64,000 bases of DNA, from positions 1 to 64,000 of the forward strand of contig CANLOV010000004.1 of NCBI GenBank assembly GCA_947492955.1, given 5' to 3'. Every line of letters begins with the position of its first letter. Position 1 is the first letter of the stretch. A program made the position numbers and the translations under genes. The stretch comes from an uncultured Cellulophaga sp. (lineage in GTDB: Bacteria; Bacteroidota; Bacteroidia; Flavobacteriales; Flavobacteriaceae). Under the pieces are notes generated by a model. That model worked only from the letters and a program-made list of their open reading frames with translations. It had not been told where the DNA came from and did no database searches. Below are positions 45,778-62,099 of this stretch, in pieces.

Positions 45778-46411
45778 AATAAGAAAAAGAAAAAAGTATT
45801 TATTGTTTTAATTTGTCTGTTTGCATATCAAACAAGTGTAGCCCAAAATTGTGAATCTATCTCTCAATATAAACAAGGTATGTATATGGAATATACCAAT
45901 TACAATAAAAAAGGAAAATCAAAATCGGTAGAAAAACACATTATAGAAGCTGTAGATAGTAAAGGAGGGAATTTGGTTATACATATTAATACATCTGTAC
46001 TAGAAGGAAAAAAGCAATGCTTCTGCTCAGAAATATGTTTTACAATGTAATAATGGTAATTTTAAAGTAGATATGGCTAATTATGCATCGCATCAGTCAG
46101 AAAATCAAGAAGGGTCAATATCTGTAGAAGCTGTAGGAGATTTTATAGAATTTCCTAGTGGAATGATAGCGGGGATGATGCTTGCTGATGGTAATATTGA
46201 TATACAAATAGGAGAAGGAAACTCTTCTTTAGCTATTGCATATATGTCTGTATTAAATAGAAAAGTATTAGGGAAAGATAACCTAACAACTCCGGAAGGA
46301 ACGTTTAAGGGTTATAAAATAAGCTTTGATTATTTGTTTGATATGGGCATAATAAAGGTAATAGGTTCTGGTATAGAATGGTATTGGAATAATAAGAACA
46401 GAGAGCTATAG
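45778..46411 (+). pseudogene. Decayed exported protein gene (DUF3108/TapB-like), frameshifted and without a start codon
   Basis: The frame beginning near 45778 encodes a signal peptide (VFIVLICLFAYQTSVAQ) and a domain with YKQGMYMEYTNYNKKGKSK and VEKHIIEAVDS, and stops at 46045-46047. The frame that ends at 46411 continues the same domain (ASAQKYVLQCNNGNF, GMMLADGNIDIQ, GTFKGYKISFDY). Removing one A from the A6 run at 46008-46013 joins them. No ATG exists upstream of the signal sequence before an in-frame stop. The whole resembles TapB/DUF3108-type secreted proteins; the ATG at 46073 alone would give a 112-aa remnant. Confidence 0.75.
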
Positions 46412-46617
46412 TAAAAAAGGGAAAATTGCGTTGGTCTAGAGAGCTTACAAAAATGAGCGAGTAATAATAAAGTTATTATACCTTTAAATTTGTAAGTAAA
46501 AGATTTTACAATCTTTTATTTTTTAAGGAATTGATAATAATTAGTTAATAATTTTTAAACCTAAAAAAATGGTTTTGTAATTAATTTTAATGTTGTTAAA
46601 TAGAGCACATTAATATT

Positions 46618-47415
46618 ATGAAACGATTTTTAGTAAGTTTATGTTTAGTATTATTTTTTTCGTGTAATACGGGTGAAGTAGGTGAGCCAGAAGATAATAT
46701 TTTTTTAGAGCTAGAAGGCTTTACATTAGAGATAAACGAAAACCCATCACAGAATTTTGTATTAGGGAAATTAAGTAGTGCAACTAATTCCGAAGAAGAA
46801 ACAACCTACCAAATACTTTCGGAGAGTTCAGCAGGTGCCTTCGGGATTATTCAAAAAACAGGAGAAATAATTGTATTAGATGTTTCTCTTTTTGATTATG
46901 AAATAAATAAAACTTTAACGGCAATTATAGAAGGAAAAGTAGAAGGAAAAAAAGCTATAGCTAATATTCGTATTACGCTATTAGATGTAAATGAAGAAAT
47001 AGATAATACAGGTGAAAATGTATATACTGGTCCTAAAATTACATTTACAAAAGCTAGTAATGCAGACATATCTTTACCAGAAAATCAAGATTGTATTACA
47101 GATAATGTATGGTTAGTTAGAGCATCAACAGAAGGTTTATTCAATATAGCTCAAGAAACTTCATATAACAAACCTGTTTCACCTGCAAATACAGAATGGG
47201 CAAAGGGAACAACTGCTGATATAGATAATTTAACCTTTAATGTATGGCGAGTAGCTTTAGATGCTTCGCCTCCGGGAGAAGTAGGAGTAGATTATGTATT
47301 GCATATTATAGATAAAGATATATACATAGATTTTAAGCTTTTATCATGGAGCAATCCAAGATCAGGTAATGCAGGAGGAGCTTATAGTTATGAAAGATCT
47401 ACACCAACAGAATAA
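46618..47415 (+). CDS. Cadherin-like lipoprotein
   Basis: The 265-aa protein has lipobox FFSCNTG (C16) and a cadherin-type repeat (about 30-125; FTLEINENPSQNFVLGKL, GEIIVLDVSLFDYEINKTL, ITLLDVNEE). A C-terminal domain follows with ITFTKASNADISLPENQDCITDNVWLVRA, which resembles bacterial HmuY-like or other beta-rich modules only loosely. It is probably a surface or periplasmic binding protein. It immediately precedes the truncated dus copy. Function is unknown. Confidence 0.7.
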   Translation: MKRFLVSLCLVLFFSCNTGEVGEPEDNIFLELEGFTLEINENPSQNFVLGKLSSATNSEEETTYQILSESSAGAFGIIQKTGEIIVLDVSLFDYEINKTLTAIIEGKVEGKKAIANIRITLLDVNEEIDNTGENVYTGPKITFTKASNADISLPENQDCITDNVWLVRASTEGLFNIAQETSYNKPVSPANTEWAKGTTADIDNLTFNVWRVALDASPPGEVGVDYVLHIIDKDIYIDFKLLSWSNPRSGNAGGAYSYERSTPTE

Positions 47416-47444
47416 AAATTGAGTTTGTGTAATAAAAAATATGC

Positions 47445-47621
47445 ATGGGCTTTACATTATTATCTTCTCCGTTACAAGGGTTTACCGACTTTCGTTTTAG
47501 AAATGCTTTTCATAAATATTTTGGAGGAATAGATACTTTTTATGCACTTTATATAAGGTTTAATAACAAATTAGTTATAAAATTGTCCTATAAAAGAGAT
47601 TTTCTTTTAGGGTATAAATAA
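47445..47621 (+). pseudogene. Truncated second copy of the 5' end of dus
   Basis: From its ATG the sequence follows the intact dus gene at 60405 base for base with about ten mismatches in roughly 170 bp, then diverges and stops after 58 codons (MGFTLLSSPLQGFTD start). The upstream flanks of the two copies differ. It lacks the catalytic GCP region and cannot be a functional tRNA-dihydrouridine synthase. Together with the intact gene it forms a direct repeat around 47622-60404. Confidence 0.92.
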
Positions 47622-47770
47622 TTTAAAAACTATATTAATTTCTTTCGTATTTACATTGTAGCATTATTTATAATTTAAATAATAAATAATTTATACTATA
47701 TTTATAAAGCTAGGTTTAATAATAAAATATTCCCCTGTATTTAATTTTTATTAAAAATAATCATTTATAA

Positions 47771-50728
47771 ATGGGATATAGATTAACATTATTTTTGTTT
47801 TTAGTATTCCAAAGTGTGTTTTCCCAATTAGACTTTAAGAAAGATTCTATTATTGACTCGCTAAAAAAAAGGCTAATAGAAGTACAACCTAATCAAAAAT
47901 TTGAAATTCTATCCAAGATTTTTGAATCCTACTTATTTACTGATTTAGATTCTGCAAAAATATATAAGAATAAGGTCCTTTTCATAGGAAAAAAAAACCT
48001 TGAACACCAAATAAATTCTTATAGCCTTGCTTCAAAATATCATTATTACAAATATGAAATAGATAGTGCACTTTATTACGCAAAAAAAACCCTTAGCCTT
48101 TCTAAAAATAATAATGATTTAAATTTAGAAGCAGATTCATACAGAAAACTAGCTATACTTTATAGCAGGAAAGCAGATTATATAAATGCTGAAAAATATG
48201 GACTTTTAGCTTTAGAAAGCTCAAAATCTTTGGGTGATTGGAATCTTATTGCCTCTGCATATACAATGCTCGGCAATCAATTTCTTAAAAAGAATAATTA
48301 TGATATAGCTTTAGAATATTACCTAAATGCTGATTCATTATATACTAAAAATAAGGAAAATGGAAGGTTTCTTGCATTGGTATATGATAACATTGCTCAG
48401 ATTTATTCAGATTTTAAAGACAAAAAAGCTTTAGATTATATAAATAAAAGTGCTAATATCTACAAACAACAGAATGATGATGAGGGCTTCAATTATAGTT
48501 ATTTAATGAAAGGAATATATTATCAGAGCATACAGGAACATCAAAATGCAATTGATAATTTAGAAAAATCTAAAGTTTTTTACGAGCAATACGAAAGTAA
48601 TTACAGGAAAAATCAAGTTTATTCAATGCTTATAAATAGCTATTCTGCTATTGGAAATTTTAAAAAAGCTGAAAACTATTTATTATTATCTGAAAATTTA
48701 AATCATAGTTCAGATACGGATGAAAGTATTTTTGATTTTAATATCAATGCAGGGCAGCTTTTTTTAAATCAAAATAAATATGAAAAAGCAATACTTTACT
48801 TCGAAAAAGCAAACAATACAATTCGCAGAGCCAACTGGAAATTTGAGCTGTCAAAAATTGAAAGTATTTATTCTGGACTATCAACTAGTTATGCTGGAAA
48901 GGGTAATTTTAAAAATGCATATTTATACGGACTTAAACAATTAAATATTGTTGATAGTATTTATAATAAAAATAATATTAAGATTACAAATGAAATAGAA
49001 GCAAAATATGAAACAAAGAAAAAAGAACAAGAAATAGCGCTTTTAAAATCCCAAAACGAAATCGTTGGACAAAAACAAAAAAGCCAGCGCAATTTGCTAC
49101 TTGGAGGAATAGGGCTTACCTCGCTTATAGGAATCTTTCTTTTTGTCTTATATAGAAATAGAAAAAAAACCAACAATAAATTATGGGAAATAGACGCCTT
49201 AAAAACAAATTTCTTTACCAACATTTCGCATGAATTTAGAACTCCCTTAACAGTTATAAAAGCTCCGATTACCGAAGCATTGGAAAATACTGAACTTTCT
49301 CCTCAAAAGAAAAAGCACTTTGAACTTGCAAAAAAAAATTCTGAAAGATTGGAAACCTTGGTAGATCAGCTTTTAGAACTTTCAAAAATTGATAGTGGCA
49401 ATAGAAAGCTATTAATCCAAAAAAACACACCCACTCAGTTGATAGCGGCTTGGAGCGAATCTTTTTTATATTTAGCCCAACAAAAGGAAATTAATTTTAA
49501 TACAGAAATTTCAGATAAAGAAGTAGAAGCATGGTTTGATCGTGAGGCTTTGGAAAATATTGTTACGAATCTTCTTGGGAATGCTGTAAAGTATACTCCT
49601 AAAAATGGTATAATAGATCTTAAGGTTTCAATACAAAATGAAACTCTAAATATAACTGTAAAAAATAGCGGAGGAGGACTAACAAGTGACCAAATTAAAA
49701 CCATTTTTAATCGTTTCTATCAAACAGATGGGCAGAACGAAGGCGCTGGAGTAGGATTATCACTTGTAAAAGAGTTGACAGATTTACATGGTGGAAAAAT
49801 TAATGTTTCTAGCCAACTAAATAAATGGACCATATTTCAAGTTTATTTAGCTATAAGTAAGAGCAAACTTAAAAATGTAGAAATCAAAGAAACTACCGAT
49901 GTAATACCAATAGGAACCACTGCTAATTTAGAGATAAATGGGACCCAAGAAGAAGCTGTTCTAAAAGATGAGGATCTTCCCATTCTTCTTATTGTGGAAG
50001 ACAATGAAGATGTAAGAACCTTATTAACAGATGCTTTTAATAAAGATTATGAAATCGTGCAAGCCGTAAACGGAGAAGAGGGGATTTATAAAGGGCTTGA
50101 GATAATTCCAGATATCATTATATCTGATTTAATGATGCCCATAAAAGATGGGATTGAACTTACTAATACCCTTAAAAATGACGAACGTACTAGTCATATT
50201 CCAATTATTCTTTTAACTGCAAAAGCAGGTGATGAAAATGAGTTAATAGGTATAGAAACAGGAGCAGATGATTATATCACTAAACCCTTCAATCAAAAAA
50301 TTCTAAAATCTAAAACTGCTTCACTGATAGCATTACGGAAAAAACTTCAGACTAGGTACAGCCAAGAGGTTATCTTAAAACCAAAAGATATTGCAATTAC
50401 ATCTGTAGATGAAAAATTTCTAGAGCGGGTACAAAAAATCCTCGATGAAAAACTGGTAGAATCTACATTCTCTATTGAACAGTTCAGTAAAGCTACACAT
50501 ATGAGTCGTATGCAATTGCACAGAAAATTAAAAGCACTAACTGGACTTTCAGCTTCTGAATTTATAAGGTCTCAACGTTTAAAGCTAGCAGCGCAGATTC
50601 TAAAAAGTTCTGATATCAATATATCAGAAGTAGGATACAGTGTAGGATTTAATGATCATGCTTATTTCAGTAAATGTTTTAAAGAAGCATATAATTGCAC
50701 CCCTTCAGAGTTTTCAAAAGCAATTTAA
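47771..50728 (+). CDS. Hybrid two-component system protein with TPR sensor (kinase, receiver, AraC)
   Basis: The 985-aa protein has a signal peptide (ending VFSQ), a long TPR-repeat periplasmic region (about 30-415) and a membrane segment (about 441-461). The kinase shows phosphoacceptor His in ISHEFRTPLTV and ATPase N-box NLLGNAVKYTP. The receiver has LLIVEDNED, IISDLMMP and YITKPF, and an AraC HTH ends the protein. All key residues are present, unlike the degenerate homologue at 8151-9656. It senses an unknown signal outside the cytoplasm and probably controls the exported-protein gene run just downstream, whose leader has two direct repeats at 50768-50810. Confidence 0.92.
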   Translation: MGYRLTLFLFLVFQSVFSQLDFKKDSIIDSLKKRLIEVQPNQKFEILSKIFESYLFTDLDSAKIYKNKVLFIGKKNLEHQINSYSLASKYHYYKYEIDSALYYAKKTLSLSKNNNDLNLEADSYRKLAILYSRKADYINAEKYGLLALESSKSLGDWNLIASAYTMLGNQFLKKNNYDIALEYYLNADSLYTKNKENGRFLALVYDNIAQIYSDFKDKKALDYINKSANIYKQQNDDEGFNYSYLMKGIYYQSIQEHQNAIDNLEKSKVFYEQYESNYRKNQVYSMLINSYSAIGNFKKAENYLLLSENLNHSSDTDESIFDFNINAGQLFLNQNKYEKAILYFEKANNTIRRANWKFELSKIESIYSGLSTSYAGKGNFKNAYLYGLKQLNIVDSIYNKNNIKITNEIEAKYETKKKEQEIALLKSQNEIVGQKQKSQRNLLLGGIGLTSLIGIFLFVLYRNRKKTNNKLWEIDALKTNFFTNISHEFRTPLTVIKAPITEALENTELSPQKKKHFELAKKNSERLETLVDQLLELSKIDSGNRKLLIQKNTPTQLIAAWSESFLYLAQQKEINFNTEISDKEVEAWFDREALENIVTNLLGNAVKYTPKNGIIDLKVSIQNETLNITVKNSGGGLTSDQIKTIFNRFYQTDGQNEGAGVGLSLVKELTDLHGGKINVSSQLNKWTIFQVYLAISKSKLKNVEIKETTDVIPIGTTANLEINGTQEEAVLKDEDLPILLIVEDNEDVRTLLTDAFNKDYEIVQAVNGEEGIYKGLEIIPDIIISDLMMPIKDGIELTNTLKNDERTSHIPIILLTAKAGDENELIGIETGADDYITKPFNQKILKSKTASLIALRKKLQTRYSQEVILKPKDIAITSVDEKFLERVQKILDEKLVESTFSIEQFSKATHMSRMQLHRKLKALTGLSASEFIRSQRLKLAAQILKSSDINISEVGYSVGFNDHAYFSKCFKEAYNCTPSEFSKAI

Positions 50729-50767
50729 CACTCTCTAACATCCTATATACATTGTACTTCTGGGCTA

Positions 50768-50810
50768 TGTTACATAGCTTATAGCTCTTGTTACATACTT
50801 CATAACTCTT
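50768..50810 (+). promoter_or_regulatory. Two 22-bp direct repeats, candidate AraC-type operator
   Basis: TGTTACATAGCTTATAGCTC... at 50768-50789 and TGTTACATACTTCATAACTC... at 50789-50810 match at 18 of 22 positions. The 21-bp spacing of their starts equals two helical turns. Paired direct repeats of this spacing are typical targets of AraC-family dimers. The site lies between the hybrid regulator gene and the exported-protein genes, upstream of a -7-like TACATTCG at 50826-50833. Confidence 0.6.
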
Positions 50811-50880
50811 CTAAACAACACCAACTACATTCGCTCTTGAATGAGGTCTTTAGTTTTTATACCTCAAAGTCAAGTTTACC

Positions 50881-51045
50881 ATGAAGCAAAAAGAGAATAG
50901 CCTAAAAGGTACACTTGATAGTTTCTCCGAAAAACAGATTTACCTCAACATTAATCATTTAAAAGACGGTAGTTATATTCTAAAAATTACACACAAAAAC
51001 AAAATAATTAAGGAAGCAAGATTTAATAAAAAACGAGGGAAATGA
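50881..51045 (+). CDS. Small protein (54 aa) translationally coupled to the next gene
   Basis: The ORF starts at the ATG following TTTACC and ends in TGA at 51043-51045, overlapping the next start codon as ATGA. Its C-terminal half (LKDGSYILKITHKNKIIKEARF) resembles the tail of type IX secretion sorting domains, but no signal peptide or cargo domain is present. It may be a leader ORF, a small regulator or the relic of a longer secreted protein. I do not recognise it further. Confidence 0.5.
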   Translation: MKQKENSLKGTLDSFSEKQIYLNINHLKDGSYILKITHKNKIIKEARFNKKRGK

Positions 51046-51857
51046 AAAATATAAAAGTAATAACACTACTAATAGCATTATGCTTTTGCACAACCAGTAA
51101 TGCGCAATTCTGGAAAAAAATAACAAAAAGAGCAGAGCAAGCTGCAGAAGAAGCTGTAGAAAGAAAAATTGAAGAGAAGGCTGCTCGAGAAACAGAAAAA
51201 ACTTTTGATACCGTATTCAATAATAAGGGTAAACTTTTTAAAAAGAAGAAAACATCAAAACTAGACAGTTACTCTTTTACCCATAGGTACGTCATGGAAT
51301 TAATTAGTGAAAATGACACTACAGAAATAACCTACTACCTAACTAACGACCATGAATATATGGCTAGTTCATTTGAAATGAAAAATACCCAAGAATTTAT
51401 TACAGTAATGGATCTTCCTAATTCAGCTGTACACACCTTTATGAATTTAGGTAATAAAAAAAGTATGTCATCCTTTAAAATTGATTTAGAAGAAGTTGAC
51501 GAAGCAGAAATGAATATGGATGAATTTGTCATTGCAATAACAGGTCAAACAAAAGAAATTATAGGCTACCAATGTGAAGAATACCAAGTTACTGGCCCGC
51601 AACTATCAGGCAATGTATGGGTAACACAAGATGCGGGTATTACTGTTCAAAAAGCATTTTCAAGATTGCAATCAAAAAAAATAAAAGGATTAAAAGGTAT
51701 GAACCAATCATGGACGAGTATGGTTGATGGCCTAGTGTTAGAAATGAAAATGATTGACTACTCGCAACGAAATCCTGAGCCTTTACACATGATTTGCACG
51801 TCACTTGAAGAAACTGAATTTAACATTTATACAGCAGACTATGAAAACCAATTTTAA
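51042..51857 (+). CDS. Secreted DUF4412-type protein
   Basis: The 271-aa protein has a signal peptide (ending SNAQF), a basic/acidic helical segment rich in Glu, Lys and Ala (about 25-70) and a DUF4412-like domain (about 75-250; GYQCEEYQVTG, NVWVTQDAGI). It is exported, probably to the periplasm. It overlaps the small ORF before it by 4 bp and the next lipoprotein gene by 17 bp, so the genes are coupled. No biochemical role is known for the domain. Confidence 0.75.
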   Translation: MKNIKVITLLIALCFCTTSNAQFWKKITKRAEQAAEEAVERKIEEKAARETEKTFDTVFNNKGKLFKKKKTSKLDSYSFTHRYVMELISENDTTEITYYLTNDHEYMASSFEMKNTQEFITVMDLPNSAVHTFMNLGNKKSMSSFKIDLEEVDEAEMNMDEFVIAITGQTKEIIGYQCEEYQVTGPQLSGNVWVTQDAGITVQKAFSRLQSKKIKGLKGMNQSWTSMVDGLVLEMKMIDYSQRNPEPLHMICTSLEETEFNIYTADYENQF

Positions 51858-52482
51858 ACCTAATAGCATAAAGCATTTAGTGGTATTATTCTTATTCAGC
51901 TTAATTCTAAGCTGTAATACGGTTTCAAAAAATGAAGCTAGCAAAACTGACGAAGCTTCGCCAGTTATTGTTAAAACTAGCACTAATGAAAAGCAAGTTA
52001 AAGAAACACCTAAGGAAACTTTCTTATGTACAATTAATGGAAAAGACTGGGCCTATACAAAAGCGTCGGGTATTATCTCTAAAGATAGAAAAACCAATAA
52101 GCGCATGGCATTGATGACATTTACAAAAAAGCTTGAAAAGGGAAGCGAGAGCATTCAGTTGCGCTACGACGCAGATTCTTTTGAATTACTTATTGCATCT
52201 ATACAATTGCGATTTAAAAGTAAAGAAGGCAAACACTTTACTTGTTATTACGAACTCTTCCCTGATACCAAAAAGAAAAGCCCTAATGCTATAATAATGG
52301 GTAGTATTGACCTGTCAAATTCAGATTCAGCTTCAGGCACCGCAGAAATTACCAACCTCAATATCAAATATGAAAGTGAAAAGTTAGAAGACCAAGCAAA
52401 CGCAACTATAAGTTTAAGCGATTTAGAATTTTCAAATATTGGCTATTCTGATGTTGATAAGGTTGCGAACACTGTTAAATAG
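51841..52482 (+). CDS. Hypothetical lipoprotein
   Basis: The ATG at 51841 gives 213 aa with a clean lipoprotein signal (LFLFSLILSCNT, C25); an in-frame ATG 36 bp earlier would place extra residues before the signal. A Ser/Thr/Lys-rich linker is followed by a beta-rich domain starting FLCTINGKDWAYTKASGII, a pattern seen in small exported flavobacterial proteins. It overlaps the DUF4412 gene by 17 bp and is 9 bp before the next gene. Function is unknown. Confidence 0.7.
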   Translation: MKTNFKPNSIKHLVVLFLFSLILSCNTVSKNEASKTDEASPVIVKTSTNEKQVKETPKETFLCTINGKDWAYTKASGIISKDRKTNKRMALMTFTKKLEKGSESIQLRYDADSFELLIASIQLRFKSKEGKHFTCYYELFPDTKKKSPNAIIMGSIDLSNSDSASGTAEITNLNIKYESEKLEDQANATISLSDLEFSNIGYSDVDKVANTVK

Positions 52483-52491
52483 AAAACCATT

Positions 52492-53757
52492 ATGATTATG
52501 AAACAAAAAATTGCTTACAGATTATTTATTATCATAGGCTTGTTCAATTTAAGTTTATCAGCTCAACCATTTACTCTCAATGAAGAAATAAAGCCTTTAA
52601 AACTTCAATTAACGAAACACCCCAAATATGAGGGTGCTAAATACGCAGAGGGTGAATTCAGTCTGGTTTCAGGTGAAACAAGTTATCATTATGTAAAAGG
52701 GCATGATGTTTTTCAATATGTTGACATCTTTATATATTCTGATAATGAAAATGCTGATTTACAAGCCGACTTAGTATTTAATACTTGGAATACTATTGAA
52801 GAAACCAAACATACTTCCAAATCTGAAAATGGTATTATAAACTTAAAAGTAAGGAGTTGGCAAGATATAGGGTTTACAGTTAAATCCAAAGATCTCACAA
52901 AAATTGACTATAGTATTATAGTAAATGCTAGTGAGCCAATGATGAATTACTTGGGCTCACCATTTGTTAAAGCCACAGAAGAAAACCTTGTTTCAGCAAC
53001 AGCCATTGAACAACCAATAACCAACTCAAATGATTCGACACAAACAAATTGGTTTATTTATATCTTAATTGGAGTTCTTTTAGTACTTGTTGGTCTAATG
53101 GCAGGAAAACTAAGCAGCAGAAATAAAACCTTACTCTTTATCTTACTCTTCATAGTAATTGGTTTTCAATCAAAAAATTATGGTCAGGAAAGTAGAGATG
53201 AACAAGACGCTGTAATACATGCTAATAGAAGAAGTCAGATTGATTCAAGAATTAATGATGTAAACCAATTAATGGGTACTGGGGATGCTGCTGAAGAACT
53301 GATTAGACAATATAGAAATCTTGGCTCTTGTCTACGCTCAGGACCGCCCCCTGGAAGACCGCGTATACCATCATTTTGCGCCGAAGAATCTACTTGTGCG
53401 GATTGTTTTTATAGAGCACGTGCGCGATTTGATTCATCTCGATATAATTTAGAAAAACTACAAACAATTTATGACTGTTCTACAAGCTATTTAAACGCAG
53501 CTATTGCCTTTGGTGATAATGTCTCAGGTTATCATGGAGTGTCTGGTATAATCTGGCAATCCAAGAAAAGAGAAATTGAAAGAAGCATGAGGAATTTGGA
53601 TAAAGCCTATGATGAAAAACGTGTAGAAATGCTAGCTGCCTTTCAAGATAATCTAAGTTCATTAGACGAGTGTGAACGAGCTCATGGAATGGAAGATTGG
53701 TACGATAGGTTTGGAGTAATGTTCTACAATTTTGCCGAAATGCGATATCACAGATAA
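52492..53757 (+). CDS. Exported membrane-hairpin protein with Cys-rich C-terminus
   Basis: The 421-aa protein has a signal peptide (ending LSLSAQ) and a beta-rich exported part (about 25-180). Two adjacent membrane segments (about 184-203 and 209-226) are followed by a charged helical part with several Cys (SFCAEESTCADC, CSTSYLN, DECERAHG). The second membrane segment looks like an internal signal peptide (NKTLLFILLFIVIGFQSKNYGQ), so the gene may be a fusion of two exported proteins. I recognise no family. It is 18 bp before the OmpA-fusion gene. Confidence 0.65.
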   Translation: MIMKQKIAYRLFIIIGLFNLSLSAQPFTLNEEIKPLKLQLTKHPKYEGAKYAEGEFSLVSGETSYHYVKGHDVFQYVDIFIYSDNENADLQADLVFNTWNTIEETKHTSKSENGIINLKVRSWQDIGFTVKSKDLTKIDYSIIVNASEPMMNYLGSPFVKATEENLVSATAIEQPITNSNDSTQTNWFIYILIGVLLVLVGLMAGKLSSRNKTLLFILLFIVIGFQSKNYGQESRDEQDAVIHANRRSQIDSRINDVNQLMGTGDAAEELIRQYRNLGSCLRSGPPPGRPRIPSFCAEESTCADCFYRARARFDSSRYNLEKLQTIYDCSTSYLNAAIAFGDNVSGYHGVSGIIWQSKKREIERSMRNLDKAYDEKRVEMLAAFQDNLSSLDECERAHGMEDWYDRFGVMFYNFAEMRYHR

Positions 53758-53775
53758 TCAGGAAATTAATTAATC

Positions 53776-55572
53776 ATGAAAAATTATATCCTACTAATTA
53801 TATCGATAGTATTGTTTTATGCCTGTACAGAAACGCCAAAAAAAAATCAGAAGGCAGAAGAGCATACTGAATTTATAAGTAATTCAGATGAAAATCAATC
53901 AAAAGGGTCCTCCGAAGATTTAGAAGGTGCCTTTGAGCAAATGGATGGACTCCTCAATACGAGAAATAAAAAACAAACGAATACTGCAGGTGACAAATTA
54001 TCAGAAGTAGAATCACTTGAAAAATTGCTTCAATTAGCAGGAACTCAAACAGAGGGTAATGACGGTTCTATTCAAGAAATGCTATCGTCTGCTAGCATTT
54101 TAGAAATGCTCCAAGCTAGCGGAGTGACTCAAGAAGAATTAGAAAAACTCTTAAACAACCAAGATAGCTTGGCAATCTTAGCTGCAGAAGTGAAAAAAAA
54201 GAGAGCGGTACAAAAACAAGTAGCCATTGGAGATTTGACCCAAGGCAAGCTATCGGAAGGTCAGCTTAGCTCTAAAACCACAACTACAGGGGTTTCCCTT
54301 CAAGAAGCTATTCTGTTAGTACAGGCAGAATCTGGAATAGCGGCAACCATCGAAAAGTTAAAACAAGTAGACTCTTTGGCCGGCACGAATACCATGGAAC
54401 AACTAGATCTAGAAACCGCCCAACAAGTTTTTAATGCTGTAGAACAAAGAAAGGAAGCCGCGGCTAATTTAGACGAAAAAGAAAAAATGGCTCTTCTAAG
54501 AAAGCGAACAACACAACTACATAACGATAAGGAAGCTATTACGCTTTTAGCTGAATTAGAACAAATAGAGGCAGATATAGCATCAGGCAAGATAAAAGCA
54601 AGCCCTCAATACGAAAGCTTCATAAAAAATAGAATAAAAAGGGCGAAAATTTATGGTAGTGCATTTAAGACAAAATCCAAAAAAGCTATGGATAAGTTCA
54701 GAAAATTAAACCCTGACCTATACTTTGGTGAGGGGGCTGGTGGCACCTATGTGGGTGCAGGTATTGGCGCTACAGCCGTATATCTTCCTCTTGGTAAAAT
54801 GGCGTTTGCAGATAAAGTAATTAGCGCTTACCACCCAAAACAGCAAATCAACAATCTCAATAATGTCATAGGAGAGCCAGATGTACTTTATGGTTATGAA
54901 GTTGACGATGTTACGGGTATTTATAGCCTTGGTGACGGAGGCGATTTAACGGTACAATTTATTGACAATGCCTTAACAGACGTGAACGGTCCTGACCTCT
55001 ATATTTTTGAATATGGCACAGTGGAACCAACAGATCTTGAAATCTCTGAAGACGGTAAAAACTGGATTAGGGTTGGTAAGATTGAAGGAGGAGTAGCCGA
55101 AGTTGATATTTCCCAATTTGTCAAACCTGGAGAATTGTTTTACTACGTTCGTTTAAAAGATTTAATGAAAACCACATCGTTGCCTGGAGCTGACATTGAT
55201 GCTATTGCTGCTATAGGTTCAGCCATGCGCTTAAACCTAGACAGCAAGGTGCTTTTCGAAACAGGCAAAGCTGAATTAAAACCAGAAGGTATTCATGCTT
55301 TAAAAACATTGGCTCAGAGCATTGTTATACTCAAAAGAGGTAATGTAATCATCGAAGGGCATACCGATGATGTCGGCAGTGAAGCATCCAACAAAAAACT
55401 TTCTCTTGCACGCGCCAAAAGCGTATCAACCGAGTTAAAAAAATTAATTCCAGGAACTGGATTTAAATGGAGAGAAAGAGGTTTAGGAGAATCAAAACCC
55501 TTGGTAAAAAATGATAATGATAAAAACAGAGCCAAAAACCGAAGGGTTGAGGTTTTAGTATTACCCAATTAA
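53776..55572 (+). CDS. OmpA-family lipoprotein with large N-terminal region
   Basis: The 598-aa protein has a lipobox (FYACTET, C17) and a helical Glu/Gln/Ala-rich region (about 20-300). A beta-rich module follows (about 350-480; GEPDVLYGYEVDDVTGIYSLG, PDLYIFEYG, DLEISEDGKNW) that looks like a lectin-like surface module. The C-terminal OmpA domain (about 490-598) has EGHTDDVGSE and NRAKNRRVEVLV intact, so peptidoglycan binding is expected. It probably ties an outer-membrane assembly to the cell wall. A 78-bp remnant of a second copy of its 3' end lies at 56241-56318. Confidence 0.85.
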   Translation: MKNYILLIISIVLFYACTETPKKNQKAEEHTEFISNSDENQSKGSSEDLEGAFEQMDGLLNTRNKKQTNTAGDKLSEVESLEKLLQLAGTQTEGNDGSIQEMLSSASILEMLQASGVTQEELEKLLNNQDSLAILAAEVKKKRAVQKQVAIGDLTQGKLSEGQLSSKTTTTGVSLQEAILLVQAESGIAATIEKLKQVDSLAGTNTMEQLDLETAQQVFNAVEQRKEAAANLDEKEKMALLRKRTTQLHNDKEAITLLAELEQIEADIASGKIKASPQYESFIKNRIKRAKIYGSAFKTKSKKAMDKFRKLNPDLYFGEGAGGTYVGAGIGATAVYLPLGKMAFADKVISAYHPKQQINNLNNVIGEPDVLYGYEVDDVTGIYSLGDGGDLTVQFIDNALTDVNGPDLYIFEYGTVEPTDLEISEDGKNWIRVGKIEGGVAEVDISQFVKPGELFYYVRLKDLMKTTSLPGADIDAIAAIGSAMRLNLDSKVLFETGKAELKPEGIHALKTLAQSIVILKRGNVIIEGHTDDVGSEASNKKLSLARAKSVSTELKKLIPGTGFKWRERGLGESKPLVKNDNDKNRAKNRRVEVLVLPN

Positions 55573-55599
55573 ATGTAAATAATAATTAAAATATAGATT

Positions 55600-56196
55600 A
55601 TGAAAACGATTATAAATTTATGTACAATGCTAAGTGTTGTTTTTTTAGTACAAGCTAACCCAACAGAAAAACTGTATGAAAATTCATTGCCTGATCCTCC
55701 AAAAATAGTACTTAATGAGCTATTCAGCCTAGAAAAAATGATAGGTGAGATTTTGAATAGAGAAGACAAATATTATATCAGTGGCACTCTATCTAGAGTC
55801 TTTGAAGCAGGAACTGGTAGTGATAAATTCTCTACAAGTAGTGAAGTTATTTTATCAAGCGAAATAAATGCATACTACGGAAGAAATTATGTGGAAGCAT
55901 ATGGCAGAACACATCATGTCTCACGTTCCCGATATAAATCTAAGGTAATACAAATTTATATTCATGGAGATACTCAAAGATCTGGTGATATTGATAAAAC
56001 CAATGTGAAAATAAATGTGAAATACAAGGATCCCGTAACAAAAAGCAATATAGAGATTTCAGGTAAACTATCACATGTAACTACCGTACGTGGAAAAGAA
56101 AGCTTTTTTATCTCAGGTATTCTTCGAAAACAAGGCATAACCTTGGGTGTAAATCTTATTGTTTCCAAGTTTGCTTTTGGCTATATAAGAAGTTAA
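55600..56196 (+). CDS. Small secreted protein, member of a local paralogous family
   Basis: The 198-aa protein has a signal peptide (ending LVQANP) and a beta-rich body with IYIHGDTQRSGDIDKTNVKI and an ending ITLGVNLIVSKFAFGYI. The same layout is recognisable in the broken gene at 57430-58009, and the N-terminal third resembles the short gene at 56361-56582. I recognise no wider family. It starts 27 bp after the OmpA-fusion gene. Confidence 0.65.
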   Translation: MKTIINLCTMLSVVFLVQANPTEKLYENSLPDPPKIVLNELFSLEKMIGEILNREDKYYISGTLSRVFEAGTGSDKFSTSSEVILSSEINAYYGRNYVEAYGRTHHVSRSRYKSKVIQIYIHGDTQRSGDIDKTNVKINVKYKDPVTKSNIEISGKLSHVTTVRGKESFFISGILRKQGITLGVNLIVSKFAFGYIRS

Positions 56197-56240
56197 TCTG
56201 AAACTTAAACTTCAAAAAGAAGTAAAAAGACTAAGCATCT

Positions 56241-56318
56241 AAACTCTTAGTAAAAAATGATACAGATAAAAATAGAGCCAAAAACCGAAGGGTTGAGGTA
56301 CTGGTATTACCTAATTAA
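56241..56318 (+). pseudogene. Remnant of the 3' end of a second OmpA-type gene
   Basis: These 78 bp match the last 78 bp of the OmpA-fusion gene (55495-55572) at all but about nine positions. They still read in frame as ...LVKNDTDKNRAKNRRVEVLV... up to the TAA at 56316-56318. Nothing similar precedes it. It indicates a former duplicate of the OmpA gene lost by deletion or recombination. Confidence 0.9.
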
Positions 56319-56360
56319 AAAAATGTTCTCCACAATTATTAAATAATTAAACTAAAAATT

Positions 56361-56582
56361 ATGAAAACCATTTTAAGCGCTATTGCACTAGTATGTATAC
56401 TTTTTTCTGTAAAGGGAAATGATATGAAAAACCAAAATCATACTAGTTTAGAAAATTATTGGGAGCAACCATTAACTGACACTATTTATTTAGATCAGAT
56501 TATTAATGATATCGTAAACAATAGAAGAGGCTATTTCATGACAGGTTCTGCAACCATTATAAAAGAGGCGAGAACTATCTAA
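56361..56582 (+). pseudogene. Truncated paralogue of the small secreted protein family
   Basis: The 73-aa reading frame has a signal peptide (ILSAIALVCILFSVKG) and a segment TIYLDQIINDIVNNRRGYFMTGSATIIKEA that lines up with residues about 33-72 of the 55600 product. It then stops at 56580-56582, whereas the paralogue continues for 125 residues. It stands 42 bp after the OmpA tail remnant, repeating the order OmpA then small secreted protein. It could be a real short protein, but truncation is more likely. Confidence 0.55.
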
Positions 56583-56662
56583 AACGCCAGAACTTGAGTG
56601 GAAGTTTTACCAAAAAAAGTGCCGCTTATTCTGCAAAATTGTTTCAATTACAAACAAAAATT

Positions 56663-57394
56663 ATGAAAATCATACCTATTATAACGGCCATTATTCTCGT
56701 GCTTCATGCTAGTAAAGCTTGTGGTCAAAATTTAACTTCAAACGAAGCATTGAAGTTGGTAGACCTTTTGAACAGCACACTAGCTGAAAACATCCAACTA
56801 ACAATACAGGGAAATAAAGCGAACATTCAATGGGATACCATTGGTAGAACATTCGATTTAAGACATGAATTTGAAATTGCTCGAGACAGTATGTCATCAA
56901 AAGAAATTAAAACAAAGTTCTATCATTTAAGGCGATACATAGGGCCTATTTATTGGAAATACAATTTCGAAGATGCCGCAAGTTCTAAAGTGAACTTTAG
57001 GGCAAATAAACGCGGTCAACTATTTATGTCGTTCTCTTTTGAAGAACAAGACACCGTATTCATAAAAAGCAACCTAAATGAGTTTAGCAGCCATCATCGG
57101 ACTTCAGATTCTGGTTTACATCGGGTACTATGGTCTGGTGAAAAATATATAAGCCTATTACTTCAACCAAAAAAAGAAACCAATACTATCCAGTTTTATT
57201 TAAGGGGTGTAACCCAAAGTGGAAAATTTGAAAGAAAAGACCACATACCCATTCGCGAAAATTACGCAAGTACTTTAAGACAATTACTTAAGAGAGAATT
57301 TCAACAGCTTTTTGAGCAAATTATTTTAAATACGAATACTTCTAAAAATGGGTCAAACTATGAAAGCATTGAGGTTATCACAATCTCTAATTAA
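56663..57394 (+). CDS. Hypothetical secreted protein
   Basis: The ATG at 56663 gives 243 aa with a signal peptide (IIPIITAIILVLHASKACG); an upstream in-frame TTG would add 23 residues of non-signal sequence. The body is mixed alpha/beta with no recognised motif (RHEFEIARDSMSSKEIKTKF, FERKDHIPIRENYASTLRQL). It lies within the run of exported-protein genes. Function is unknown. Confidence 0.6.
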   Translation: MKIIPIITAIILVLHASKACGQNLTSNEALKLVDLLNSTLAENIQLTIQGNKANIQWDTIGRTFDLRHEFEIARDSMSSKEIKTKFYHLRRYIGPIYWKYNFEDAASSKVNFRANKRGQLFMSFSFEEQDTVFIKSNLNEFSSHHRTSDSGLHRVLWSGEKYISLLLQPKKETNTIQFYLRGVTQSGKFERKDHIPIRENYASTLRQLLKREFQQLFEQIILNTNTSKNGSNYESIEVITISN

Positions 57395-57429
57395 AATAAT
57401 CTAATACCTAATATTTAAATCTAAGAATT

Positions 57430-58009
57430 ATGAAAAAATTGGTACCAATACTGGTCTTGTCGTTACTCGGAACTATATTTTCAAGCGCACAGATAAAAAA
57501 CAACAAATTAAAAAAACCCATCGCAAGTACAAATTGATCCATCGCTGCTAGATGGCAACTTGAATCTAGAGACCATTAAAAAATATATTAATTCAGGAAA
57601 ATTATGCTATACCATAAATACAAGTATGACAGCAATTTTTTCGCCAAAAAATCCAAAACCCGTAAAAGCAATTGATGCACATTACAAATCGACCCGATAT
57701 GTGCGAGTAGAACGTGAATATTTAAGAACCAATGGTTTATTAGTAAGAAGTGACAGTGACTTCAATAGAAATTTCGGCAACAACTTTGAAGTTCTGATTT
57801 ACCCACAACGTAGAGACTCTAAAAAGGTAGATGAGAACCAAGTAAAACTAACATGGAGCATTCCCGAATCTCGCTTACGGACCTTTCATTTACAAAACGT
57901 TTCGGATAACTATAAACCCCAAGGTATTTTAATTACTAGAGATTATGAAGTAGACGGCATCGTATTTGGAGTTAGTATTGTTCTTATTCCCAACAGTTAT
58001 ATCATTTAA
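57430..58009 (+). pseudogene. Frameshifted small secreted protein gene of the local paralogous family
   Basis: The ATG at 57430 encodes a signal peptide (LVPILVLSLLGTIFSSAQ) but its frame stops at 57535-57537. The body lies in the next frame (PSQVQIDPSLLDGNLNLETIKKY... to 58009), which by itself lacks a signal. One extra A in the A7 run at 57510-57516 explains the break. The C-terminal layout (VKLTWSIPES, FGVSIVLIPNSYII) parallels the 55600 product. It may be a pseudogene, a phase-variable or frameshifting gene, or a sequencing error. Confidence 0.75.
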
Positions 58010-58019
58010 ACAAAACAAG

Positions 58020-58595
58020 ATGAAAAATACAAGATATATTTTTGCCTATTCCATATTATGCATATTGTCGTTAGTGCTGATTTCTTGCAGTGTTGAAAAC
58101 GGACAAGACGGTGCTATTGGCCCACAAGGCCCCGCAGGTAGTAACGGTATTGATGGTCAAGATGGCAATGCCAATGTGATTGCCTCTGATTGGTTAGATA
58201 TCCCAGGCGATGTATTTTCGGGCGTAGCGGAGATGAACATTTCACTTAGCGAAATCACATCTGAAAATATCAATACCAGTGTGCTTTTAGTTTATGCAAG
58301 AACGAGTAGTTTTCCAGAAGACGTATGGCCTCAAGGTCAAACCACATTGCTACCGGTGGTCATTCGGTCCAACATTGATGTAAAGTTACAAATGGACTAT
58401 TTTTTTACAATGGAAAACCTAACCATACGCTATTGGCAAAGTCCTTTTTTGGAATTCATTTCTTTTCCTTCTGACACGCAGTTCAGATATGTTATTATCC
58501 CGTCATTAACTAGTCCCTCAGGTAAAAACAATCGGGTTGATTACCATAAAATGTCTTACGCTGAAGTTATGGATTTTTTTGACTTACCGCTTTAA
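58020..58595 (+). CDS. Lipoprotein with short collagen-like Gly repeat
   Basis: The ATG at 58020 gives 191 aa with lipobox VLISCSVE (C23). It is followed by a short Gly-X-Y run (GQDGAIGPQGPAGSNGIDG) and a beta-rich domain. This layout is common in flavobacterial surface lipoproteins of unknown function. It is 10 bp after the frameshifted gene. Confidence 0.7.
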   Translation: MKNTRYIFAYSILCILSLVLISCSVENGQDGAIGPQGPAGSNGIDGQDGNANVIASDWLDIPGDVFSGVAEMNISLSEITSENINTSVLLVYARTSSFPEDVWPQGQTTLLPVVIRSNIDVKLQMDYFFTMENLTIRYWQSPFLEFISFPSDTQFRYVIIPSLTSPSGKNNRVDYHKMSYAEVMDFFDLPL

Positions 58596-58668
58596 ACAAC
58601 AACTTACAGAAATCAAAATTTACTCATTAAAAAAAATGTTCCCTATAATCATTTAAAATCATAACATT

Positions 58669-59391
58669 ATGAAAATCAAAAAATTATCAATTACACTATT
58701 CGTCTTATTTATGGCAATCAATTGCTTTGCCCAATGTAGAGAAATGAATGTTTCCGATTTAACGGAAACACTAAACAACCTTGTAAAACCCACTATGTCT
58801 ATTAAACTAGACCGTGATGACTCTAGGTTTACGATTTTAGGGTATACCGAAAGATTCTCACTACCTGCCGAAAACATTAGTAAACCAGCAAGAGATTGGA
58901 GATATCATGTAGAAGACATAAAGTCTGATGATTCAAATCTTTGGTTCGACAAAAAGCAAAAGAATTTTGTCTTAGATGTTAGATTTGAAGGAGATGGACC
59001 AGAAATTAAAGGGATATGCCCAGGGTGCTTAAAAAGATTTAGAGATCGAAGAGCTCCAGACGTTAATTGGATTAAATCTAGAATAGCCCGTTTACGATTT
59101 AACCCCATAGTTTATAATAATGGCATAACCCTAGAAATTATTGATGTGGAGCTTTTTGGCGAGTTTGATGTTAACGGTCCTTTGGAATCTTTCTTTCCAA
59201 GAATGATACGAAAAATTGAAGATAGAATAAAAAAATATGTTCAAACTGAAGCCCGAAAATCTCTAAGTAATACTAATATTAAAAGACAAATTGCGGCAAG
59301 AACCCAGCCTCTTGTAACGGCATTGGGGCTAAGGTCTGTAAGAAGTATCCGATTTTCTTCGGATGGTAGTAAAATTCAATTTTGCCAATAA
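58669..59391 (+). CDS. Hypothetical secreted protein
   Basis: The 240-aa protein has a signal peptide (ending NCFAQC), a Cys pair GICPGC near the middle and a basic C-terminal part (IRKIEDRIKKYVQTEARKS). No known family is recognised. The leader before its ATG (ATTAAAAAAAATGTTCCC) resembles that before 56361, again hinting at duplicated units in this gene run. Confidence 0.6.
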   Translation: MKIKKLSITLFVLFMAINCFAQCREMNVSDLTETLNNLVKPTMSIKLDRDDSRFTILGYTERFSLPAENISKPARDWRYHVEDIKSDDSNLWFDKKQKNFVLDVRFEGDGPEIKGICPGCLKRFRDRRAPDVNWIKSRIARLRFNPIVYNNGITLEIIDVELFGEFDVNGPLESFFPRMIRKIEDRIKKYVQTEARKSLSNTNIKRQIAARTQPLVTALGLRSVRSIRFSSDGSKIQFCQ

Positions 59392-59453
59392 GAATTTGAA
59401 TGGGGTGTAAACAACCAATAAAATCCTGAATATTATATCTTAAACAAAGAGAA

Positions 59454-60053
59454 ATGAAAAAAATATTAGTGCTAGGATTTCTAGTTTTGTCAGTGAGTTT
59501 GAACGCCCAGTTGGTCGTTGATGATTTTAAAAGTGGTGATTTAACCAATAAAACTATGGGATTAGGTGAAAGTGACTTTATGTATCAAACGGGAAACTCA
59601 ATCATTGGAAAAACCCGTCAAATTCGTGCCAAAGTCAACCAAAATCCTTTTAACCAAAATTTTCAAGTTGCGGTTAAAAATGGTAAAATAGTTATCTCAG
59701 CAGCATACGATACGCGAGGTACTGTTTATTTAGGTTATGGAAAAGACAGTAATAATAAAGCTGCTCCTATGAACCTTGATCTAAGTAGCTACAAAAATCT
59801 AAAAATAGAATATGATGGTAAGAGTACTGTAAATGGTATATTTATAGCGCTTTTTACCGGAACTTCAAGAGCTACTTACGGTAAACATGTGGAAGCTAAA
59901 GAAGGCAAAATCGTATTTACAATTCCTCTAAAAGACTTCGAAAAAATTAGCCCTAAATACACTCTCAAAGATATTGATTTTATTAGGTTTCAATTCGATT
60001 CCCGAAGTAAAACCGGCTGTAATATGGCTATCAACAAAATCTGGTTTGAATAG
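59454..60053 (+). CDS. Secreted beta-sandwich protein, possibly carbohydrate-binding
   Basis: The 199-aa protein has a signal peptide (ending SLNAQL). Its body starts VVDDFKSGDLTNKTMGLG and ends FIRFQFDSRSKTGCNMAINKIWF, a layout like CIA30 or CBM-type jelly-roll domains. It is the last gene of the exported-protein run, and a terminator follows at 60070-60102. The binding target is unknown. Confidence 0.6.
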   Translation: MKKILVLGFLVLSVSLNAQLVVDDFKSGDLTNKTMGLGESDFMYQTGNSIIGKTRQIRAKVNQNPFNQNFQVAVKNGKIVISAAYDTRGTVYLGYGKDSNNKAAPMNLDLSSYKNLKIEYDGKSTVNGIFIALFTGTSRATYGKHVEAKEGKIVFTIPLKDFEKISPKYTLKDIDFIRFQFDSRSKTGCNMAINKIWFE

Positions 60054-60069
60054 AGTTATTTATACAAAT

Positions 60070-60102
60070 AAAAAACCTCGCTACTAAGCCGAGGTTTTTT
60101 GT
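60070..60102. terminator. Bidirectional terminator at the end of the exported-protein run
   Basis: AAAAAACCTCG (60070-60080) pairs with CGAGGTTTTTT (60090-60100) across a 9-nt loop. It is followed by T on the plus strand and A on the other side, so it can serve both convergent genes; it overlaps the last codons of the minus-strand gene. Confidence 0.85.
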
Positions 60103-60341
60103 TTTATAAATTCTGCTTCAAAGAGTTCCTTTTCTTCTTCATTTACGTGTTTTTGTCCCAATTCTACATTTAAAGAGATAACTGCCTTGTCTTTTATTTC
60201 GCAGGGAATCATCAAATCTAAGTATCTTAAATTTGAATTTAAGTTCAATAAAAACTTTCTTTTTATACTTGGATTATGACTAATGCCAACATAGGGTAAC
60301 ACATTTGTATTTGTAATCTTTATGTATTTTTCTTTTTCCAT
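60084..60341 (-). CDS. Hypothetical small protein
   Basis: The start at 60341 (MEKEKYIKITNTNVLPYVG) gives 85 aa; a further ATG 18 bp upstream is less likely. The protein is soluble and ends in a Glu/Lys-rich tail (EEEKELFEAEFIKQK). I recognise no family. It is divergent from dus and absent beside the truncated dus copy at 47445. Confidence 0.55.
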   Translation of the reverse strand: MEKEKYIKITNTNVLPYVGISHNPSIKRKFLLNLNSNLRYLDLMIPCEIKDKAVISLNVELGQKHVNEEEKELFEAEFIKQKTSA

Positions 60342-60381
60342 AAATATGGAAAGATTCAATTAAAATTACTTTTTTGATTAT

Positions 60382-60389
60382 TATATTTG
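60382..60389 (+). promoter_or_regulatory. Candidate -7 element TATATTTG of dus
   Basis: The box matches TAnnTTTG and lies 15 bp before the ATG of the intact dus gene. It is not found at the truncated copy. Confidence 0.45.
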
Positions 60390-60404
60390 CGCAACTACAA
60401 ACAA

Positions 60405-61358
60405 ATGAGTTTTACATTATTATCTTCTCCGTTACAAGGGTTTACCGACTTTCGTTTTAGGAATGCTTTTCATAAATATTTTGGAGGAATAGATACTTTT
60501 TATGCTCCTTATATAAGATTTAATAACAAATTAGTTATAAAATCGTCCTATAAAAGAGATCTTCTTTTAGAGCATAATAATACCTTAAATGTTATTCCGC
60601 AAATAATGACAAATAAAGCCGAAGAGTTTTTATTTGTGGTAAAACATATTCAAAAATTAGGCTATAAAGAACTTAACTGGAATTTAGGATGCCCATATCC
60701 TATGGTAACTAATAGGGGAATGGGGTCTGGACTTATTTGTAACCCAGCAAAAATAGATGAAATTTTACATCGTGTGCATTCAGAAACAGATATTACAGTA
60801 TCTATGAAAATGCGTATGGGCTACGAGCATAGTAAAGAAATATTAGATGTATTTCCTGTTTTAGAAAAGTATCCCATAAAAAATGTAGCCATACATGCAC
60901 GTATAGGTAAACAGTTGTATAAGGGGGGAGTAGATTTAGAGTCTTTTAAACGTTGTATAGAGAGCACTAAATTAAAACTATATTACAATGGAGATATTAC
61001 TACAGTTGCTGGCTTTAGAGCAATGCAAGAACATTTTCCTACTATAGATCATTGGATGATTGGTAGGGGGCTTATAGCAGATCCTTTTTTACCTAGTATG
61101 ATTAAGAATAATACCGATGAATACCCAAAAGATAGATGGGATATTTTTAATGAATTCCACGATACTATTTATCAGCAATATGATGCTTTTTTATCTGGAC
61201 CAACACCTATAAAAATGAAGATGCAAGGGTTTTGGGAGTTTTTTTCTCAGTCTTGTTCTAACCCACAGAAAACATTTAAGCTTATAAAAAAAGCTAAAAA
61301 TCCTATAGCTTATAAACAGGCGGTAAAAGAGATTATAAACAAAGAAAAGAACAATTAA
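60405..61358 (+). CDS. tRNA-dihydrouridine synthase
   Basis: The ATG at 60405 (317 aa) begins MSFTLLSSPLQGFTDFRFRN; a TTG 18 bp upstream is in frame but unneeded. The FMN-dependent Dus fold shows LSSPLQGFTD, the catalytic segment NLGCPYPMVTNRGMGSGL, SMKMRMGYE, IHARIGKQLYKG and MIGRGLIADPF. It reduces uridine to dihydrouridine in the tRNA D-loop. Its first 177 bp are repeated at 47445-47621. Confidence 0.93.
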   Translation: MSFTLLSSPLQGFTDFRFRNAFHKYFGGIDTFYAPYIRFNNKLVIKSSYKRDLLLEHNNTLNVIPQIMTNKAEEFLFVVKHIQKLGYKELNWNLGCPYPMVTNRGMGSGLICNPAKIDEILHRVHSETDITVSMKMRMGYEHSKEILDVFPVLEKYPIKNVAIHARIGKQLYKGGVDLESFKRCIESTKLKLYYNGDITTVAGFRAMQEHFPTIDHWMIGRGLIADPFLPSMIKNNTDEYPKDRWDIFNEFHDTIYQQYDAFLSGPTPIKMKMQGFWEFFSQSCSNPQKTFKLIKKAKNPIAYKQAVKEIINKEKNN

Positions 61359-61478: not shown

Positions 61479-62099
61479 ATGGCAGAGTTTATTAAAATAT
61501 ACCCAGATAATCCTAATCCTAAAGAAATTAAAAAGGCGGTAGATGTTCTAAGAAAAGGAGGTTTGGTTATATACCCTACAGATACTGTATATGGTTTGGG
61601 GTGCGATATTACCAATACAAAAGCATTAGAAAAAATAGCGCGTATAAAAGGAGTAAAGCTAGAAAAAGCAAATTGGTCTTTTATCTGCGCAGATTTAAGT
61701 AATTTATCCGATTATGTAAAGCAGATAGATACAGCTACATTTAAAATATTAAAAAGGGCATTGCCAGGGGCTTATACTTTTATTTTACCAGGGAATAATA
61801 AGTTACCTAAAGTATTTAAAAAGAAAAAAACGGTAGGGATACGTGTGCCAGATAATAGTATAGCAAAAGCTATTGTAGAAGAATTAGGAAATCCTATAGT
61901 ATCAACATCTATAAGAGATGAAGACGATTTGTTAGAATACACTACAGACCCAGAGCTAATTTATGAAAAATGGGATAATTTGGTAGATTTAGTTATAGAT
62001 GGTGGCTACGGAGATAATGTAGCTTCTACTGTAATAGATTTATCAGAAGATGAGCCAACGATAATAAGAGAAGGAAAAGGTGATATAAATATCTTTTAA
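61479..62099 (+). CDS. YciO/Sua5/YrdC-family protein (threonylcarbamoyl-AMP synthase family)
   Basis: The 206-aa protein has the YrdC fold with GGLVIYPTDTVYGLGCD, WSFICADLSNLSDY, PGAYTFILPG and VGIRVPDNSIAKAI. Its overall sequence and length follow E. coli YciO more than TsaC, with IDGGYGDNVASTVIDLS and the IREGKGD ending. It may make threonylcarbamoyl-AMP for tRNA t6A or have the less clear YciO role. Confidence 0.88.
   Translation: MAEFIKIYPDNPNPKEIKKAVDVLRKGGLVIYPTDTVYGLGCDITNTKALEKIARIKGVKLEKANWSFICADLSNLSDYVKQIDTATFKILKRALPGAYTFILPGNNKLPKVFKKKKTVGIRVPDNSIAKAIVEELGNPIVSTSIRDEDDLLEYTTDPELIYEKWDNLVDLVIDGGYGDNVASTVIDLSEDEPTIIREGKGDINIF

Follow-up and report, generated by a model that had tools for sequence, protein, structure and literature searches.

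How does a block of foreign-looking genes come to lie between a complete gene and a second, broken copy of that gene's own beginning? The question is raised by the dus locus of an uncultured Cellulophaga sp., a marine flavobacterium (assembly GCA_947492955.1), where an intact gene for a tRNA-dihydrouridine synthase (dus, 60405..61358, + strand, 317 amino acids (aa), Pfam Dus) is preceded by 12.8 kb of DNA and, at the far side of this DNA, by a duplicate of the dus 5' end. The locus lies in the window analysed here, i.e. positions 1 to 64,000 of contig CANLOV010000004.1 (hereafter C4), which is 325,542 bases long and belongs to a genome of 3.87 Mb. Our best reading is an old, integrase-free insertion with a duplicated gene end, beside a dus gene that itself moved; it is ordinary in kind. 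The route that we tentatively favour, giving it slightly less than an even chance, is that a gene module together with a dus 5' end came from a close relative and was integrated by a single homologous crossover, which would have duplicated the dus end without any need for an integrase.

The window was compared with itself by BLASTN. Positions 47445-47622 and 60405-60581 match on the same strand at 93.8% over 178 bp (E=1.7e-71), and a gapped alignment adds weak similarity over ~20 bp further upstream and a few bases at the right end, placing the left copy at 47424..47627 (+) and the right copy, the 5' end of intact dus, at 60386..60589 (+). Beyond these limits the flanks of the two copies are dissimilar. 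An earlier note on this DNA, made from its letters, had described the dus 5' end as recurring at 47445 with about 94 percent identity and differing flanks, and this description stands. The left copy reads openly through codon 58 and stops at codon 59. Over codons 1-57, it departs from intact dus at ten bases in nine codons, three of them synonymous and six residue-changing, and at all six changed residues intact dus holds a residue present in relatives. Pro35, invariant in 102/102 rows of a dus comparison that includes at least two records twice (C. tyrosinoxydans, C. baltica), is replaced, and Glu56, kept in 95/102 rows, is also among the positions changed. Since the changes include conserved positions and a stop follows at codon 59, the left copy is a relic of the dus 5' end, decaying without protein-level constraint, and the two copies were presumably once nearly identical. 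A 256-bp probe found only these two copies in the genome (E <= 0.001), and a search with the Dus protein through 59 further genomes listed no short N-terminal fragment like the left copy.

The place of insertion is defined by two genes that have stayed neighbours throughout the genus. A uvrD/pcrA-type helicase gene (42848..45169, +, Pfam UvrD models) on the left and sua5/yrdC (61479..62099, +, Pfam) on the right lie near each other in 17/17 congeners, with 28-2972 bp between them as against 16,313 bp here. The congener gaps hold varied small genes or none; in all 17 the genes of the window segment are absent from the site, and dus lies between uvrD and sua5 in 0/17. Because congeners keep this gap short and never with dus in it, the lineage-specific DNA spans ~45.2 to 61.4 kb, beginning before the left repeat and taking in intact dus, and the conserved landmark is uvrD-sua5, not dus. 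The earlier note had placed the segment at 47445..60581: its repeat coordinates hold, its limits for the inserted DNA do not. It had also judged the segment slightly richer in G and C. This is so for the 12.8 kb between the copies, yet the excess is modest (0.329 vs 0.309 +/- 0.014 in same-size windows over 884 kb of the genome, 91.6th percentile); third-position G+C is 0.258 vs a mean of 0.205 +/- 0.037 (641 open reading frames, ORFs). In congeners, the uvrD-sua5 gap is a small variable insertion site, either empty (28 or 125 bp) or filled with lineage-dependent genes, which include phosphatase-like and hydrolase-like ones (names judged from sequence).

The genes at 47.8-58.6 kb form a module that recurs in other genera of the family. 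They are colinear with loci elsewhere, most clearly in genome G066 (regulator, DUF4412 protein, 421-aa protein, OmpA-domain protein, then small proteins) and partially in others; this context was taken from 14 stretches in 13 genomes, all of other genera. The module opens with a regulator combining TPR, histidine kinase, receiver and AraC parts (47771..50728, +, Pfam), whose best congener match is 46% over the C-terminal half, and a DUF4412 protein (51042..51857, +, Pfam), both colinear in other genera. A lipoprotein-like gene, so judged from its sequence (51841..52482, +), has relatives that adjoin the 421-aa gene in two other genera. The module core consists of the 421-aa protein of unknown family (52492..53757, +), with matches in 25/397 family genomes, own included, and the OmpA-domain protein (53776..55572, +, Pfam OmpA). 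Residues 1-405 of the latter match in 42/397 family genomes (own included, E <= 0.001), of which only 9 fall below 1e-30, many of the weaker matches covering the last 75 residues only. Among congeners without a match, only G007 and G016 are visible in this 397-genome sample, the other 15 not being known to be in it. On these counts the module is patchily distributed in the family.

A probable trace of the module's former surroundings is found at its right end. An ORF at 60084..60359 (-) holds a C-terminal scrap of a gene that we take to be lipB (similarity at 60108-60260, matching LipB residues 172-231); the genome's own intact gene, which matches Pfam LplA-B_cat, lies on contig C10, flanked by a lysS-type gene and, with nothing in between, by a conserved upstream gene. 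The best stretch of the scrap agrees with own lipB at 69/86 bases (80%), as against 94% for the dus copies, so scrap and dus repeat differ in source or age, and the scrap would be either imported or older than the repeat. When its ~50 residues were ranked against 22 lipB genes, G005 came first, then G066, with own lipB mid-list; the source cannot be told from so few residues. A complete lipB lies within the same 20-kb stretch as the module in 5/13 genomes (G066, G116, G118, G376, G145), so that the module is at home near lipB in some genomes but not in all. The scrap points to an origin of the module at a lipB locus. Nine congener lipB loci were compared: nothing separates the upstream gene from lipB in G006, G008, G010 and G017, and a DUF3108-like gene stands there in G001, G002, G007, G013 and G014. 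In G001, a 446-aa gene 33% like the window's OmpA-domain protein also lies between the conserved upstream gene and lipB.

Because of the short uvrD-sua5 gap in 17/17 congeners, the patchy module and the lipB scrap, we regard the segment as acquired, foreign DNA. The earlier note's proposal that an island entered here is thereby supported, and the anatomy agrees with the outcome implied there: dus is intact, island DNA precedes it, and a discarded 5' end lies beyond that DNA.

Did the incoming DNA also restore dus, as the earlier note had supposed? A tree of 91 rows, built without 11 rows that have a stop near the match end and without two identical ones, places own Dus with the Cellulophaga clade and G027 (97/92). 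Mean identity to ten Cellulophaga-clade relatives and to 92 other rows is 0.763 and 0.714, respectively, for the 5' part, and 0.755 and 0.737 for the remainder of the gene; the 5' end reaches at most 80% identity to any of the 102 relative rows. Thus, the 5' part shows the same affinities as the rest in these 102 rows, with no sign of a chimaera, which argues that a distant donor did not supply it. A host-like 5' end speaks against a remote island restoring the gene. The protein scores 110.5 bits with the DusB model and 68.7 and 66.2 bits with DusA models, all below cut-off, and on these scores the enzyme is not clearly DusA.

The gene itself has moved. It is present in 15/17 congeners, in several contexts and with neighbours that vary within the genus, and is accordingly accessory in the genus. 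In 10/10 Cellulophaga-clade congeners, it lies upstream of a radical-SAM gene (family assigned by domain search); in this genome the radical-SAM gene is found on contig C1 and has no dus next to it. Two further congener neighbourhoods are recognisable on C4, again without dus: that of the G014 type, with its two flanking genes 157 bp apart, and that of the G001 type, with its upstream genes ~2.3 kb apart. Since these contexts stand empty of dus here, dus moved in this lineage, and we rejected the idea that its current site is ancestral.

The sequence of events that we favour would run as follows. The module would have left a lipB locus in another flavobacterium, carrying the last quarter of lipB with it, and would then have been placed upstream of dus in a bacterium closely related to this strain. 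DNA broken inside dus, comprising the module and ~180 bp of the gene, may have entered this lineage and closed into a circle, and the circle would have integrated by one homologous crossover in the dus 5' end, between uvrD and sua5. The outcome would be a module with a complete dus to its right and, to its left, a redundant 5' fragment that has since decayed by about 6%. A partial gene end and a complete gene flanking an insert are what a single crossover with a circle carrying part of the gene would leave behind, and here a direct partial copy of dus flanks the insert at one side with the other copy intact.

Several points weigh against this sequence of events. No strain of this species and no empty dus allele was found, so that the order before insertion is inferred. 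A donor with the module beside a full dus is hypothetical, and none of the 14 module stretches contains a dus match. In the other 8 of the 13 module genomes, lipB was found in the stretch examined in none. A DUF3108-like gene, broken into pieces in three frames (45796..46455, +, ends approximate; Pfam DUF3108_like on the ORF at 46073-46411, tblastn pieces of ~23-33% identity), lies outside the repeats, though its relatives stand beside the module or beside lipB; the block may therefore have more than one layer. Finally, an integrase that was lost or acted in trans would leave similar anatomy.

Two alternatives without an integrase must be weighed against the single crossover. An illegitimate insertion at a staggered break in dus, with the overhangs filled in to give a target duplication of ~0.2 kb, would yield the same structure in one step and would fit the two dus copies being equally host-like. 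A stagger of 200 bases is unusual, however, and we count this against it; microhomology at the junctions cannot be judged without an empty allele. We consider it unlikely. Just as unlikely, in our view, is that a module-dus unit was duplicated in tandem and most of the first copy then deleted, or that a second dus copy lost its 3' part. Tandem duplication with decay did occur inside the island, at the OmpA 3' end and the 198-aa gene that follows, and the DUF3108-like pseudogene on the left side of the fragment may be a remnant, but two events are required, one breakpoint would have to fall by chance near the dus start, and the DNA to the left of the fragment showed no further recognisable module gene.

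The earlier note had seen no integrase, and for tyrosine integrases this holds over the 325-kb contig: PF00589 has no match on C4, serine recombinases and transposases being covered by a Pfam scan of the 19 ORFs from 42.8 to 63.1 kb rather than over the whole contig, and that scan gave no recombinase. Of the 15 dus-bearing congeners, none has a PF00589 match closer than 20 kb to dus on the contig that carries it; the nearest match is 24 kb away (G013), and five have none on that contig. Least probable of the rivals is that a lost or trans-acting integrase recombined an element into the dus 5' end and that the element supplied the new one: a fragment at the far end and an intact gene at the near end do resemble dusA islands as presented in the portion of PMC4482086 consulted, and five PF00589 matches occur elsewhere in the genome, but these integrase searches, a repeat of ~180 bp rather than 19-28 bp, and a module that elsewhere is not seen at dus all stand against it.

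The block holds further genes. Left of the repeat lie a lineage-specific 145-aa gene (45267..45704, +), with no Pfam, NCBIfam, PADLOC or PHROGs match and no counterpart in the uvrD-sua5 gaps of the 17 congeners, and a 265-aa gene (46618..47415, +), probably exported as judged from its sequence, which ends 29 bp before the dus fragment and likewise has no family match in these four collections. Between the repeats, the OmpA gene is followed by a 198-aa protein gene (55600..56196, +), of which a second, tandem copy at 56361-56582 is truncated to 73 aa; the duplication spans 55488-56582. The OmpA gene 3' end is repeated over 86 bp, and the similarity carries on into the beginning of each of the two copies (tblastx E=4.9e-10). 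We had considered this repeat, 55488-55573 and 56234-56319, as another bracketing scar, and rejected it as a tandem duplication since the similarity runs into the next gene. Four small module proteins follow within 56663..59391 (+; starting at 56663, 57560, 58014 and 58669), the first three with colinear relatives in other genera, and then a 199-aa protein (59454..60053, +), for which one other genome has a relative (54%) in the vicinity of the module. Judged by eye, the cargo is probably a set of cell-surface genes with exported products, and the domains of the regulator make it likely that it responds to an envelope signal and governs the genes that follow.

Other origins and functions were also examined. 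Among 72,556 plasmid records none matches the 421-aa core protein, among 50,697 phage records none matches the N-terminal 405 aa of the OmpA-type protein, and 10 proteins (the number scanned with each of NCBIfam, PADLOC and PHROGs) gave no PHROGs match; a phage or plasmid origin was rejected on these grounds. A defence system was rejected as well, PADLOC returning only OmpA/MotB-type and TPR matches and one weak match (PD-Lambda-5_A, E=0.0067, protein 59454). No tRNA or Rfam RNA was found in the window. Further left, at 9775-11001 and 22010-23251, the window carries two related ORFs (435 and 429 aa, 73% DNA identity over 1251 bp) 11 kb apart.

Is the dus scar alone in this genome? Direct repeats less than 40 kb apart were scanned over 884 kb (about 23% of the genome). 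C4 has 8 of them and C1 has 86, of which many belong to dispersed repeat arrays. About five pairs, picked by eye, combine an intact ORF end with a fragmentary copy; they concern dus, the OmpA-type gene (the tandem duplication), a SpoU-type methyltransferase gene, pbpC and a 237-aa gene. Because the pairs were picked by eye, they are a lead, not a rate. At the SpoU locus (C1:470326-474083), the last 64 bp of the gene and 25 downstream bases (C1:470796-470884) recur at C1:472934-473022 (90%), and the copies, 2.1 kb apart, enclose an AraC-type regulator and a CAAX-protease-like gene (domain search). The distance from SpoU to its convergent dNK neighbour is 98-209 bp in 17/17 congeners vs 2775 bp here. 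Thus, this locus is a scar similar to that at dus, with an empty site in congeners. In C1:489065-508310, a pbpC-like gene has a second copy of its 3' end 13 kb further downstream, within a cluster resembling polymorphic toxin and immunity-type genes by eye; pbpC lies elsewhere in congeners, and an empty site can therefore not be read. Separately, dense dispersed repeats, mostly 45-300 bp and 80-100% alike, occupy C1:84-114 kb and C1:407-428 kb, almost all of them outside predicted ORFs of 80 aa or more.

It is conceivable, though we think it doubtful, that accessory DNA enters this flavobacterial lineage repeatedly without integrases, each entry using a short homologous gene end (90-200 bp), which becomes duplicated and later decays. 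If true, a general uptake route would leave its scars in legible form as gene-end fragments (dus, the SpoU methyltransferase, perhaps pbpC), and the origin of a cargo would show in scraps of its former neighbour, here lipB. Island searches commonly rely on integrases, tRNA genes and short exact repeats. None of the three was found for this island, yet an entry scar (the decayed gene end) and an origin scar (the lipB scrap) can be read, and if the pattern is common it would offer a way to detect integrase-free gene transfer from single genomes.

How does the locus compare with known systems? Firstly, the dusA islands and prophages carry, in the part of Farrugia et al. 2015 (PMC4482086) drawn on here, an integrase and 21-bp semiconserved direct-repeat sites (attL/attR). 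As here, foreign DNA stands at the dus 5' end, with an extra 5' end at the far side and the gene intact. The differences are that those islands have their own integrase, that their site is of 21 bp whereas the repeat here measures ~180 bp (a comparison of size, no search for the 21-bp consensus having been made), and that they target dusA, whereas here the enzyme is not clearly of that type, dus is lineage-specific at the site and the module is not seen at dus elsewhere. Kinship with dusA islands, which the earlier note had suggested, is not sustained by these comparisons, and we rejected a dusA-specific genomic island. An island in Bacteroidota, as outlined in PMC6764341, provides a further contrast, with an integrase and 53-bp perfect repeats. 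Secondly, the modules near lipB in five other Flavobacteriaceae genomes (those named above) share with ours the regulator, the OmpA-domain protein and any genes between them, in the same order; lipB is complete there, whereas here the module sits between uvrD and sua5 with a lipB scrap only. Thirdly, no paper was found on partial duplication with Flavobacterium islands, related searches gave nothing fitting among the papers listed, judged by title and the start of the abstract, and the parallel comes from Escherichia coli. With linearised DNA bearing one homologous end, partial target duplications arose in 56/60 selected clones and measured 109-950 bp in 14 sequenced clones; the sections of PMC3240628 used here ascribe them to a single crossover of re-closed circles. 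In both cases, an insert is flanked by a direct part-gene duplication within that size range and no integrase is seen; the E. coli case is a laboratory plasmid under selection, and ours is 12.8 kb of natural DNA, for which the same event would have to be read from its scar.

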